In this document: positions 21,541-33,360 of the stretch, in pieces
Layout of the letters: every line of letters begins with the position of its first letter
Numbering within the stretch: the first letter of the stretch is position 1
NCBI GenBank assembly: GCA_022841645.1
Contig: JALHRC010000008.1
Span: 11,083-44,451, forward strand
DNA length: 33,369 bases
Reading direction: 5' to 3'
DNA from: Minisyncoccota bacterium
GTDB lineage: Bacteria > Patescibacteriota > Minisyncoccia > Phycocordibacterales > UBA918
Position numbers and translations under genes: made by a program
The notes under the pieces: generated by a model
What the model was told of the DNA's origin: nothing
Seen by the model: the letters and a program-made list of their open reading frames with translations, nothing else
Database searches by the model: none

Positions 21541-21597
21541 CCGGCGGCACGCCATCACTAGGGCGTGAGGAGGGGTCATAACCCCTCCGCCCGCCGG
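21541..21597 (+). other. Predicted three-way-junction RNA structure downstream of the lipoprotein gene
   Basis: Outer stem CCGGCGG/CCGCCGG; inner stems ACGCC/GGCGT and GGAGGGGT/ACCCCTCC. Confidence 0.5.
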
Positions 21598-21735
21598 AGC
21601 CTGGGCATAAGTGTAGTTGACCAAAAGGCAGAAGCATGATAGCTTCAAGGTACGGCCGATGAGCCTCCCCCCGTCGTCAGCCGCCTTGGGCTCGCAGCCC
21701 CCCCCGTTCCTTCGCCCGACCAGACGTGACGTGCC

Positions 21736-21780
21736 TCCAGCGGCGCCAACATTTCCCTCCACAAGGAATTTGGCGCCGCT
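21736..21780 (+). other. Hairpin AGCGGCGCCAA / TTGGCGCCGCT with ~20-nt apical region
   Basis: Perfect 11-bp inverted repeat seen directly. Confidence 0.75.
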
Positions 21781-21795
21781 TAATCGTTATCTCCC

Positions 21796-21824
21796 TTCAC
21801 ACTTTTATCATCACTTGCTATAGT
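21796..21824 (+). promoter_or_regulatory. Putative promoter of the tRNA-Glu locus
   Basis: TTCACA - 17 nt - TATAGT, ~34 nt upstream of the first tRNA-like segment. Confidence 0.55.
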
Positions 21825-21857
21825 GTGCGCGCAGAAAAGCAGCAAAGTTTAACAATA

Positions 21858-22248
21858 GGCCCCATCGTCTAGCGGCTACAGGAATGAAAAGCGGATAGCT
21901 TTTCATTCGGTTTGGACTTTTGTCCAGAATCGCCGATGTTCACGAGGTGATAGGAGGATTCTCATTCCTGTAACCGGGGCTGAAATCTGCACAAAGCGAT
22001 GAGCTTTGTAGCAAGCAAACTGCTTTGCTTGCGTGTAGATTTCAGGGTCGGAATTTGTCGCTCTGCGACCTTGAGATGGGTGAGAAGTGACTCAACGTCA
22101 CTTCGCAAGACTCATTATGGACTTTTTCGAGCATAGCGATGAAAAAGACCTAATGAGTGGACAGAATCTGTAGGATTAGCGAGATTTTTGTAGAAAATAC
22201 TCGTGACCGATTCTCAATCGAACCTGATAATGCGAGTAGAAGTAAAGC
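21858..22248 (+). ncRNA. Structured RNA region containing an interrupted tRNA-Glu pseudo-copy
   Basis: 21858-21878 matches the tRNA-Glu 5' half with one mismatch; 21956-21980 matches its anticodon arm/variable/T-stem segment exactly; rest has many stable hairpins and no ORF. Confidence 0.55.
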
Positions 22249-22320
22249 GGCCCTATCGTCTAGCGGCTAGGACACAGGATTCTCATTCCTGTAACCGGGG
22301 TTCGATTCCCCGTAGGGTCA
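22249..22320 (+). tRNA. tRNA-Glu (anticodon CTC); encoded CCA at 22321-22323
   Basis: GGCCCTA/TAGGGTC acceptor, CAGGA TTCTCAT TCCTG anticodon arm, GGGGTTCGATTCCCC T arm. Confidence 0.95.
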
Positions 22321-23815
22321 CCAAATTAGAAGAATCAGCATCATAAACCTCTTTAAGCTTGTAAATTAGCGCTATTTTATTAGTTCCAAATTTATTTCCA
22401 TCAAAGTGGGTATTTTCAGGGAATACAATTTTTTGGAACCTTAAGCGAAACTCAGGATACTTCTCTAGAAACCTCCATGTTTGAGCACTATCCCTTGTAA
22501 ATTCAAAGCAATAACTCAGGGCGTTCTCCATATTAAATTCCTCAATTTCCTTTTCTTTTAAAAGAGCCTTTTTATCTCTAACTTTGGCATTTATGTAGTT
22601 TTTTTGATCTAAAAACTCACGGTCATCATAAACACCATTCCTGTGAGAATCAAAAACCTTCTGACGATCACTTTCTAATGATTCTATTTCTTTCCTTATT
22701 CGAGCGTTATCATGGTCAAGTCGCTTATAATTTTCCTGCCAAACCTCGATCACAATAGCTTTTAGTAACTTTTCGTACTGTACCCCTTTTGGACTAACTG
22801 ACGTCAAATAGTTTGCAAAGACTTCTTCTAATTCATCCTTCTTGTGAAAAGAAGCTTTAGTACAACCTTGCTTATGGTGATGGTAGTAAGGATATCTCTT
22901 TCCGTTGTGACCGGTTGATGAGCTACCTGTTAAATGTCCGCCACAGTGAGTGCAGTAGACGGCCTTCTTTAGAGGAAACTTAGGATTAAGAGCCTCACGT
23001 CGCGATAACGCAATTTTCTTTCGGTTGTTTGGTTGGCATTTAAAGAATAGTTCTTCAGAAATCAATGGCTCAAAACTACCTTTAACTTCTAGGCCAAAAG
23101 CAACAATTAGTCCGAAATAAATAGGATTTCTAATCATTTTCTCAATTCCTTGTTGATAAACTTTCTTACCTCCTTTTGATCTAAAACCACATTCATATAG
23201 AAAATCTGCTAGTTTTCGGTAACTATAAGTACCCTTTGACCACTCTTCAAAAGCCACACGTATGTAGGGTGCAATATTTTCATCAATAATTAAGTTACCA
23301 CCTTTAACGAGACGCTTGTAACCATGTGGTGCACTCCAGACCCACACACCCTGTCGCACACGCTCTTCCATTCCGCTTTTAGACCGCTGAGCTCTTACGT
23401 TATTATCAAACTCTGCAAATACAGATAAAACACCCTCCATGGCTTTTCCTATTGCTGTCTCGTCAATAGGTTCTGTCACTGAGCGTAGTTTTGTATTAGC
23501 TTTTCTAAGCATTGCCTGCACGATTACATGGTCATTCTGATTTCTGGCAAATCTATCAAGTTTGTATACAACAAATTGATCTACTGGCCGCTTCTTATTA
23601 GTGCAAAACGCTAATGCTTTTTGAAACTCGGTTCTATTGGCTGACTTTGCTGATTCTCCTTGTTCAATAAAAATAGCCAGCACTTCAAGATTATTATGTT
23701 GTGCATACTCACGACAAAGTTTTTCTTGCATAGCAAGGCTGGTTCCTTGGATTTGCTCGTGAGTTGAAACCCTGCAATAAATAATAGCGGTCTTATCTTG
23801 TTCTCTCATATACAT
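22283..23815 (-). CDS. Large serine recombinase/integrase, zinc-ribbon type
   Basis: 'AIIYCRVSTHEQIQGTSLAMQE' catalytic domain, 'YKLDRFARN', Cys/His-rich 'YCTHCGGHLTGSSS'; C-terminus VTLRGIEPRLQE read from antisense tRNA. Confidence 0.95.
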   Translation of the reverse strand: MYMREQDKTAIIYCRVSTHEQIQGTSLAMQEKLCREYAQHNNLEVLAIFIEQGESAKSANRTEFQKALAFCTNKKRPVDQFVVYKLDRFARNQNDHVIVQAMLRKANTKLRSVTEPIDETAIGKAMEGVLSVFAEFDNNVRAQRSKSGMEERVRQGVWVWSAPHGYKRLVKGGNLIIDENIAPYIRVAFEEWSKGTYSYRKLADFLYECGFRSKGGKKVYQQGIEKMIRNPIYFGLIVAFGLEVKGSFEPLISEELFFKCQPNNRKKIALSRREALNPKFPLKKAVYCTHCGGHLTGSSSTGHNGKRYPYYHHHKQGCTKASFHKKDELEEVFANYLTSVSPKGVQYEKLLKAIVIEVWQENYKRLDHDNARIRKEIESLESDRQKVFDSHRNGVYDDREFLDQKNYINAKVRDKKALLKEKEIEEFNMENALSYCFEFTRDSAQTWRFLEKYPEFRLRFQKIVFPENTHFDGNKFGTNKIALIYKLKEVYDADSSNLVTLRGIEPRLQE

Positions 23816-24269: not shown

Positions 24270-24450
24270 CAAGCCTTAACGGCAGAGCCTAACCCTTAGG
24301 GTAAATCCTAAGGTATGGTTCAAAAACGCAACGAACGCAAAAAGCCCGTATCTAACGGCGTTCGTTGCGTTGCCAAGGGAAACTTTGGTAGAGGTTACCG
24401 TAAGGTGCCTTCTTTAGATACGGGCTTTGTGTTACCCGCTTAAATCGCAA
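24270..24450 (+). ncRNA. Structured leader / candidate noncoding RNA with interleaved long stems
   Basis: A AACGCAACGAACGC 24325-38, B AAAGCCCGTATCTAA 24341-55, A' GCGTTCGTTGCGTT 24358-71, B' TTAGATACGGGCTTT 24414-28; CCTTAGG/CCTAAGG hairpin upstream. Confidence 0.6.
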
Positions 24451-27151: not shown

Positions 27152-27202
27152 ATGTGGGTGCTAGCTCCCTTAGTGAGCGGCCAAAATAATCCCATTGTTT
27201 AA
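27152..27202 (+). CDS. Very short ORF MWVLAPLVSGQNNPIV
   Basis: AGGAGG at 27135-27140, 11 nt before ATG; may be a gene remnant cut by the adjacent element. Confidence 0.3.
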   Translation: MWVLAPLVSGQNNPIV

Positions 27203-28620
27203 GCTCTGCCAACAATTCGTTCCAACTGTGTCCCACTTGGGTCACAAACAGACAAAAGTTTACTTTCAAAAGGCTTCATGCCAGTTGTAAGCTTAAATTT
27301 CAACGTATCTTCAGTCATATAGAGTTCGGAAAAGATAATCCGTGCTATTTTCTCTCGTTCAGGTGTTTTTGCATGTTCGTAATACCCTGTAATGTTTTTT
27401 AGTAGTTCGGAAAGTGTCACAATGTCTCTCATTGTTTCTAGCATTGCTTCTTCAGATACTACTTCCTCTTTGAGTAAGAGCTGTATCTCATTACTGATGC
27501 GAGTATCCTCCTCGATATAGCCAACAGGTGTGTATGCTCCAGCTTTAAGAAGAGTAAGTTTATTATCACGAAGATATTTTTGCTCCTCACGCAAACGCTT
27601 TTTCTTTTGCTCAATATCACGAAGATTCCTTTGTCGGCCAGCTTCCACCAAAGATAAATCTGTTTGTACTCGATATTCAAACTCCTCAAGTTCCTCAGGT
27701 GTGAAATATAATCGTGATAATAGTTCAGCTACTTTATTCTCAAGAACATCAGTATTGAAACTTGTTACCGAATTAACACAACCAGCCTTACACTTTGAGC
27801 CATAGTAAGTAGCCCCTTTCTTTTCGTAGGGCGTATAGAGTCGCTCACAATGAACACAACGTACTAGCTTCCGGTATGGATGGTCCAGACAGACAGAATA
27901 ATGTTGACTCACTTTCTTCTTTTTTAGCTTCTGTTGGACCGAATTGAATAGCTCTTCAGAAACAAGTGCTGTATGACTTACACTCTTAACGTCAAAACCA
28001 TCTGGACCAATAATGTAGCCCTTATAAAAGGAGTTAGAGAGTATCTTGTGGATGTTGCCGTATGTGACTGGTCGCTCAATCTTAGAAATTTTGTTTTCAC
28101 TGTCATCACTGTCACCAAGTAGCTCATCTTCTGTTCGTCTACGTCTTACCGCTGGCATAACAAACCCAACATCAGAAGCCCAACGAGCTAGTGAGTGTAG
28201 TGTCCACTCACCGGTATCGTATTTCTCAAATAAATCTTTAACTAGTGGCGCACGTACAGGGTCAAAAGGCTTTTCATGCATGTTGCCAGTGTTCAGGTAT
28301 CCTACAGGTGCTTTGTATGTACATACACCTTGCTCACGTAGGTTACGCGTAGTAATGCGAACCTTCTCACTAGTCACACGGGAGTGATGGACCGCAAACA
28401 TTCCATCAATATCCATATGTAATGCACCTGAGCTTGTATCGTCATAGCTCGCATAAACAAACTTAACTTCTACCCCTTGTCGCATCAGTTTGTCCAGCAA
28501 ATTGTTATCTGACTTGTTACGACTTAAACGGTCATAGCTAAGACACACCAGACCTTTAAAATACTTTTGATTCAAATACTGTGTAAGTAGACTGAATTTT
28601 GGTCGAGCAGATTTATATTC
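27199..28620 (-). pseudogene. C-terminal part of a second large serine recombinase, separated from its N-terminal part
   Basis: Reads ...EYKSARPKFSLLTQYLNQKYFKGLVCLSYDRLSRNKSDN... in frame to 27199; lacks the catalytic-serine segment; zinc-ribbon 'RCVHCERLYTPYEKKG'. Confidence 0.85.
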
Positions 28621-28774
28621 CTAAAACTTACCCCGTCTGCTCTGCAGCGGGGAGACGAGAAGCCACAAGGAAAGTTTGAAAACCTTGGTTTTCAATTAAA
28701 CTTACGAGCGAAGCTCCTGACGATACCCCGCCGTAGCGAAGCGGAGGGGACAGCTCTGCTGCGGGGAGTCTTCA
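28621..28774. mobile_element. 154-nt hairpin-rich insert splitting the serine recombinase (MITE-like)
   Basis: Recombinase reading is restored if 28621-28774 is removed (...DDGHIQ|EYKSARPKF...); subterminal hairpins CCCCGtCTGCtctGCAGCGGGG and CCCCgCCGtagcgaaGCGGaGGGG. Confidence 0.65.
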
Positions 28775-29053
28775 TTGAATATGACCATCATCAGTAATAT
28801 TTAGGTCAATACTGTCTTTAAACCCTGAGTGTTTTTCTGAAATGACACCATCCTGACAGAAATTCTTAATTGAAATATTAGCGACTTTTAACCGCTCGCG
28901 GTTAGCAAACTTTTGAGTCTCTCGAGCTTGATAAGACAACGAGTTTTTCTGATTATTGTCTTCATCAGTACTCTTTCTAGTATAAATAAGAAAACAATCA
29001 GCGTATGTACCACGCATGATTGATTCATGTAGTTTTTTATCATTCACTGGCAT
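28772..29053 (-). pseudogene. N-terminal catalytic fragment of the second serine recombinase
   Basis: 'YADCFLIYTRKSTDEDNNQKNSLSYQARE' resolvase motif; stops at the insert boundary. Confidence 0.85.
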
Positions 29054-29222
29054 GTCCTTTTGTAATAATACCATCCTTAATAGTGTAGCCCTCACTTATC
29101 AGTCGATTATGTATCCCCTCAAGTACACTCCCAAGCTCACGGATACTTTCAATTGTCGCAGGAGTAAAAAGCCAATCTCTGTTGGTTTTAACATTACTGT
29201 CTGTAACCTGAGATTGGCTCAT
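29040..29222 (-). CDS. Small protein translationally coupled to the recombinase
   Basis: 60 aa; its 3' end overlaps the recombinase ATG (29053) by 14 nt. Confidence 0.5.
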   Translation of the reverse strand: MSQSQVTDSNVKTNRDWLFTPATIESIRELGSVLEGIHNRLISEGYTIKDGIITKGHASE

Positions 29223-32004: not shown

Positions 32005-32110
32005 TATAGCCCTATTTTTCTTGTATTACACCAGACAGACTGCTATCATGTCGAGACAACAAAGCCACCTAACCCGCTGTCGCAAGATACCGGCATGGTG
32101 CGAATAAATA

Positions 32111-32216
32111 AGCCCCGTCAGAGCTAAAGAACCCATCATATGGGGTTAGCTCTGACGGGCCGCATCGGGAAACCGGTGTGGTGGCCGAAAGGCCACACCC
32201 ATGTGGTGGGCTTTTT
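32111..32216 (+). promoter_or_regulatory. Structured 5' leader with terminator-like 3' end
   Basis: 14-bp stem CCCGTCAGAGCTAA (32114-27) / TTAGCTCTGACGGG (32146-59), GGCC-GAAA-GGCC hairpin, then GTGGTGGGCTTTTTG. Confidence 0.6.
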
Positions 32217-32865: not shown

Positions 32866-33360
32866 ATAAATGGTCGACCACATAGTCAAACGACACAATA
32901 AAAGTCTCCTTATCTTCCACCTAGTCTGTCCAGTCAAATTCCGCAGAAAAGTCTTCACTGAAGCCTCCTCACAAACGCTGAAAGAAATTTGTTTGGAACT
33001 AGGTATCCGTTACGAGTATCGCTTCTTAGAGATCGGTATTGATCAAGATCATGTCCATTTTCTCATTCAAACAGTTCCTAACACATTGATTTCAGGGATG
33101 GTGAACACCATAAAAAGTATCACTGGGAGGCTTATCTTTGCCAAACATCCAGAGGTGAAGGAATTTCTGTGGAAGAAAAAGTTCTGGACAGACGGATACT
33201 ACATAAATACCGTGGGCCGCTATGGAGATCTCACAATGATTGAGAATTATGTTAAGAAACAAGGCGCCAAGGAGTATACACAAATCCATCAAGACCACCC
33301 CACGCTGTTTACCTAAAACAATCGAACGAAGTCACTGATACCTCACCGCTTGCGGTGGGG
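32826..33360 (+). mobile_element. IS200-type insertion sequence bounded by identical REP-like hairpins
   Basis: CCTCACCGC-TT-GCGGTGGGG at 32826-32845 and at 33341-33360, flanking a Y1 transposase ORF. Confidence 0.85.
32870..33316 (+). CDS. tnpA: IS200-like Y1 (HUH) transposase
   Basis: 'FHLVCPVKFRRKVF', HUH motif 'DHVHFLI', 'KFWTDGYYINTVG', 'IENYVKKQ' with candidate catalytic Tyr. Confidence 0.92.
   Translation: MVDHIVKRHNKSLLIFHLVCPVKFRRKVFTEASSQTLKEICLELGIRYEYRFLEIGIDQDHVHFLIQTVPNTLISGMVNTIKSITGRLIFAKHPEVKEFLWKKKFWTDGYYINTVGRYGDLTMIENYVKKQGAKEYTQIHQDHPTLFT

Follow-up and report, generated by a model that had tools for sequence, protein, structure and literature searches.

Integrative elements that target tRNA genes insert at the T-loop and restore the interrupted gene with a duplicated gene part. 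Small palindromes inside protein and RNA genes are known from the Rickettsia palindromic elements and other MITE-like inserts. A third point of comparison is provided by the REP/REPIN sequences with their RAYT, which are short palindromic high-copy repeats, mostly extragenic and non-autonomous, and form compound hairpins.

Here, we describe two small palindromic elements, E1 and E2, located upstream of a tRNA-Glu gene in a 33,369-nt stretch of DNA from a Minisyncoccota bacterium (the whole of this stretch is referred to as the window). E1 has in common with the tRNA-targeting integrative elements both the T-loop target and the restoration by a duplicated gene part, but it differs from them in its length of about 100 nt, in its dozens of copies and in its occurrence at the ribosomal-protein genes rplK and rplL; with a range of about 90–160 nt, it has no room for an integrase gene. 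Whereas a Rickettsia palindromic element is carried in frame, the gene that holds E1 is completed beside the insert. The resemblance to REP/REPIN lies in the small, palindromic, high-copy nature of E1 and E2, whereas the T-loop and gene-end sites and the duplicated gene ends set E1 apart. No GTAG or CGTC tag was found by eye in the E1 consensus or foot, and the combination of a tag with an associated RAYT is not seen for E1. Inspection by eye only also revealed no GTTRRRY box of the integron attC type in E1. An open literature search on palindromic elements and tRNA inserts of Patescibacteria found no account of the E1/E2 family; most subscription journals were outside its scope, and a prior description is possible.

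If our reading is correct, the Patescibacteria, whose genomes are very small and of which few have been cultured, harbor an order-wide family of high-copy repeats, and E1 settles in the tRNA T-loop, among the most conserved sequences of a genome, without killing its host.

The interrupted tRNA-Glu copy

Positions 21858–22248 hold a partial tRNA-Glu gene (nt 1–21 and 28–52), which is interrupted in the D region by element A and at the T-loop by E1, with E2 nested in the latter (Table 1). E1 lies between GGGG, the 5' strand of the T-stem, and GATTC, where it replaces TTC. The 391 nt 5' of the intact tRNA have a predicted folding energy of -146.2 kcal/mol (z = -6.95), and none of 100 shuffles was as low. 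The partial copy does not combine a closed acceptor stem and T-arm with an ARAGORN or Rfam match, as a tRNA gene would. When positions 21560–22400 were compared with Rfam at the gathering threshold, the intact tRNA was the sole match, and at E-values up to 5 nothing credible appeared beyond it and a trivial overlap with the tRNA. E1 and E2 in nine related loci also gave no credible Rfam match, and the locus falls in no Rfam class.

Table 1. Features of the tRNA-Glu locus in window coordinates
Feature	Position	Strand	Details
Promoter-like site 5' of the pseudo-tRNA unit	21796–21824	+	TTCACA-17-TATAGT, 10/12, TG before -10
Pseudo-tRNA-Glu nt 1–21	21858–21878	+	20/21 identity with intact tRNA
Element A in D region	21879–21954	+	Anticodon-loop antisense/sense hairpin, second hairpin, conserved hairpin
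Conserved hairpin of element A	21929–21951	+	ATCGCC-11 nt-GGTGAT
Pseudo-tRNA-Glu nt 28–52	21955–21979	+	Anticodon arm to 5' T-stem strand; 25/25 identity
E1 hairpin H1	21980–22045	+	CTGAAATC...GATTTCAG, two inner hairpins; homologous H1 in L031, L032, L055
E1 stem P2	22046–22079	+	GGTCGGAA...TTGAGATGG; homologous positions in relatives
Nested element E2	22080–22178	+	GTGAGAA..TTCGCAA hairpin, ACTCATTA/TAATGAGT stem, AATCTGTAGGATT hairpin; replaces E1's usual GTC
E1 stem P3, right part	22179–22208	+	GCGAGATTTTTGTAGAAAATACTCGTGACC
Promoter-like site 5' of the intact tRNA	22203–22231	+	GTGACC-17-GATAAT; weaker than the upstream site
GATTC (tRNA nt 56–60)	22209–22213	+	Sole piece of tRNA nt 53–75 in the pseudo unit
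AATCGAACC	22216–22224	+	Antisense to T-arm (tRNA nt 51–59)
Intact tRNA-Glu(CTC)	22249–22323	+	Only tRNA called in the unit (ARAGORN/Rfam criterion)

Much of the initial annotation of this locus is borne out. Its tRNA-Glu-like start and its intact tRNA beginning at 22249 are both correct, and its 25-nt tRNA copy is exact, although it lies one nucleotide upstream of the positions given there (21956–21980). Every stem that it quoted is present, but TACTCG (22198–22203) had been assigned the wrong partner: it pairs with GCGAG (22179–22183) in the conserved P3 and not with CGAGTA (22233–22238). The statement that no third exon precedes the intact gene was nearly right, as only the five nucleotides of GATTC are present, and the conclusion that this is not a simple intron holds, since the sequence before the intact tRNA contains no 3' exon that could be joined. 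A single promoter had been proposed to drive one transcript across the locus. A promoter-like site does lie upstream, but since a second one precedes the intact tRNA, the two parts need not share one transcript.

A search of 59 relatives revealed the same arrangement of pseudo-tRNA and insert 5' of tRNA-Glu in other species, the named carriers being Candidatus Kaiserbacteria, Parcubacteria and Paceibacterota. The unit occurs in three forms: with insert A only, in the D region; with E1 only, in the T-loop; and with both, as in the window. A signature, GTGACC-GATTC-n-GAATCGAACC, with the antisense of the T-arm as its final part, is located about 45–55 nt 5' of tRNA-Glu in 7 of 397 genomes of the order, belonging to six genera, and also in several more named genomes. 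The conserved hairpin of element A shows double changes in relatives (ATCGCC/GGCGAT, ATCGTC/GACGAT, ATTGCC/GGTAAT and ATCGCT/AGCGAT). A MurF-like gene upstream of the unit is common to the window, L051 and L054/L061; at L010/L048 and L013, the MurF–tRNA-Glu synteny is kept, but there is an A-like 5' fragment only or no upstream unit. Because the unit is common to several families, sometimes at one MurF-like synteny, it resembles an ancient unit that has been kept more than it does a recent selfish arrival.

The pseudo-tRNA half tracks the adjacent tRNA in some genomes (it is identical to it at L032, L036, L055 and L065) and is degraded at L054, L062 and L074. Since the degradation at L062 and L074 affects the anticodon arm, we dropped a functional tRNA mimic, which had been suggested for this locus; a decayed attachment site, suggested alongside it, fits in part only. 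At about 1445–1297 on the minus strand of L045, a long insertion interrupts a tRNA-like gene that lies upstream of a 5S rRNA gene and may be an intron-containing tRNA.

Fold, distribution and nesting of E1 and E2

E1 is composed of hairpin H1 followed by stems P2 and P3. A covariance model of P2 and P3, built from three gap-free copies, matches 83 of the 118 genomes of the order at a cut-off of 0.001, with a maximum of 41 copies per genome. Across a sample of the phylum, at a cut-off of 0.0001, it matches 16 of 192 genomes, some belonging to E1's own order. Near-identical copies are found at six loci of a single genome, G060. Among viral contigs, an exact 16-mer of E1 is present in 24, yet the model gave one weak match only.

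In an alignment of 54 distinct copies, which was fitted to the structure, 97.7% of cells are paired and 21 of the 23 pairs have changed on both sides. The stems are backed by 198 compensatory cells, compared with 39.5 in shuffles, and the signal is destroyed when the partners are slid. Random decay does not account for the locus. In about 1000 cells outside three columns, wobble is limited to 8 GU and 3 AC, and the same near-wobble-free pattern is seen in another set of copies. Stems this poor in wobble suggest a DNA hairpin more than an RNA, and in this respect E1 is nearer to DNA palindromes than to RNAs of the usual kind, despite one conserved G-U pair in P3.

The E2 model, R2, matches 37 of the 38 genomes of the genus, with a maximum of 75 copies; its match at the locus (G000:C8:33157–33263) corresponds to window positions 22075–22181. 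E2 is nested within E1 at E1's own GGGG-GTC-G site, i.e. GGG-(GTC)-GCG, and the T-loop site GGGG-(TTC)-GATT has a pattern equal to this internal site. L034 and L062 contain an E2-like insert at the equivalent internal place of E1, and at L109, L117 and L118 of G060 further E1 copies are nested in E1 at the site that E2 occupies here. In another genome, G050, E1 lies inside other palindromic repeats, some of TGTCATTCCCGCGAAGG type (L121, L122, L123, L124, L125 and L126), and some of these insertions stand as inverted pairs.

Duplicated gene ends and their possible origin

To describe the genomic setting, we took 30 E1 loci, each the best match of its genome and picked by score only. A tRNA lies within 300 nt of E1 at 22 of these, and 16 have exact flanking duplications (nine on the 3' side of the gene and seven on the 5' side), mostly well above shuffles. 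T-loop and D-loop insertions occur in tRNA-Ile, Val, Ser, Tyr, Leu, Glu, Asp, Gly, Thr, Arg, Ala, Phe and Asn, and E1 is also found at the ends of rplK and rplL. In the 5'-side class, which includes the window and tRNA-Glu, Ala, Ser and Asn, an old 5' piece of the gene, in some cases together with the leader, stands first, and E1 separates it from the intact gene. In the 3'-side class (tRNA-Val, Leu, Tyr, Ser, Gly and Glu), the intact gene comes first, E1 lies behind it, and the 3' end of the gene is then present a second time; the 5' arm of H1 is the gene's own 3' end and the 3' arm its antisense. The downstream second gene ends range from identical to decayed. With E1 recurring at further tRNAs and at genes for ribosomal proteins, in most cases next to an intact gene of which a part is duplicated, the comparisons back the option, raised in the initial annotation, of a structured element that has integrated and rebuilds the tRNA it targets.

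The antisense of the last codons is found 3' of the stop in 19 of 84 rplK genes; in most of these an element comes next, behind which the last codons occur a second time, in frame. Across 16 pairs of rplK ends, 23 codons differ, 17 of them synonymously, and third positions account for 22 of the 30 differences. Simulation under neutrality gave an expectation of 18.4 non-synonymous codons, compared with 6 seen, and 0 of 20,000 runs were as low; the pairs were picked by similarity, which biases toward few differences and not toward third positions. Mainly synonymous differences indicate that both ends evolved as coding sequence over most of their divergence, and this favors a gene-completing element that was gained, lost or transferred between species repeatedly over a gene end that was copied locally and then decayed. 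A displaced gene end that is still coding-like also makes the mechanism of E1 testable. The arrangement of rplK, antisense, structured element and second in-frame C-terminal copy with a stop is seen at L193, L204, L211, L217, L230, L244 and L247, and likewise at L248, L250, L254, L257, L269 and L278; third-position differences dominate in these second copies.

We consider it somewhat probable that E1 is a miniature palindromic mobile element of T-loop-like sites, which travels with or regenerates the end of its target gene, so that the gene survives. The observations behind this reading are the dispersal and copy number of E1, its conserved fold, its insertion positions, the duplicated ends, the nesting and the near-identical copies within one genome. 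E1 would be non-autonomous and would integrate at T-loop-like sites (GG-KTC-G) through transposition by an enzyme, together with a repair step. It would either arrive with the interrupted gene part or regenerate that part by copying, so that one intact gene would remain, the truncated original half would be left on the other side of E1, and the cost to the host would probably be small. No mobilizing enzyme for E1 was found when Y1/RAYT transposases (PF01797) were checked across the genomes of the order. A RAYT/Y1 transposase as the driver was rejected because its association with E1 is only weak (57 of 83 versus 17 of 35 genomes, Fisher p = 0.06); some E1-rich genomes are without Y1, and G052 has 21 E1 copies and no Y1 match.

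The coding evolution of both rplK ends counts against this reading, because it would not be expected from simple local copying and subsequent decay, and so does the old, retained look of the tRNA-Glu upstream unit. More tentatively, E1 could be a gene-completing homing element: a hairpin of ~100 nt, as DNA or RNA, that recognizes T-loop-like sites in translation genes, brings its own copy of the gene end and passes from one species to another at tRNA genes and rplK with no coding gene of its own.

The main rival, which we regard as unlikely, holds that E1 and E2 function as RNA in genes related to translation, in the form of transcribed 3' (or 5') regulatory structures. They would act as a two-state switch that senses tRNA folding or ribosome arrival, with the gene-end antisense pairing either with its own gene end or with the second copy. 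The strong conservation of the E1 fold and its association with tRNA and ribosomal-protein genes would suit such a role, as would an antisense stretch that is able to pair partly with either gene-end copy. The conserved G-U pair of P3 also speaks for RNA, as do GU pairs that outnumber AC pairs overall and a better fold of the sense strand than of the reverse. However, the near absence of wobble is unlike a typical RNA family, the element is missing at the same genes in many genomes (as the proportion of rplK genes with antisense illustrates), and E1 copies also sit in other palindromes and within each other.

Less likely again is a plain tandem duplication of tRNA-Glu, in which the upstream copy decays, unrelated hairpins are gained by template switching and similarity is kept by gene conversion. 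Duplication of the leader and 5' fragment at L137 and L048 agrees with it, as do both the degraded and the identical pseudo halves described above. The existence of dispersed homologues already weakens this explanation. Homologous inserts sit at one and the same position in several families and are found again at numerous other genes, and their sequences show compensatory changes. An intron in the tRNA-Glu T-loop, whether self-splicing or spliced by protein, is highly improbable, for although it would suit the position in a tRNA loop and the tRNA halves on both sides of the intact gene at L054, no group I or II model matches even at an E-value of 5, neither a catalytic core nor two joinable exons are found, exact removal would lose the TTC of the T-loop, and the upstream element has no complete 3' half after it.

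The region to the right of tRNA-Glu

A serine-recombinase-like ORF (window 22283–23815, minus strand) ends within the 3' half of the intact tRNA-Glu, and its C-terminus, RGIEPRLQE, is read from the tRNA-Glu sequence. The region to the right of the tRNA looks like an integrative element that uses the intact tRNA-Glu. Within this presumed integrated element, there are two copies of LOOT RNA (RF03000), at 24286–24411 and 32066–32196; LOOT RNA is a structured element of a separate family, with no model overlap with E1 or E2. The latter copy is located shortly upstream of an IS200-like transposase gene (32870–33316). A second recombinase-like gene (27199–28575 and 28772–29095, minus strand) is seemingly split into two ORFs.
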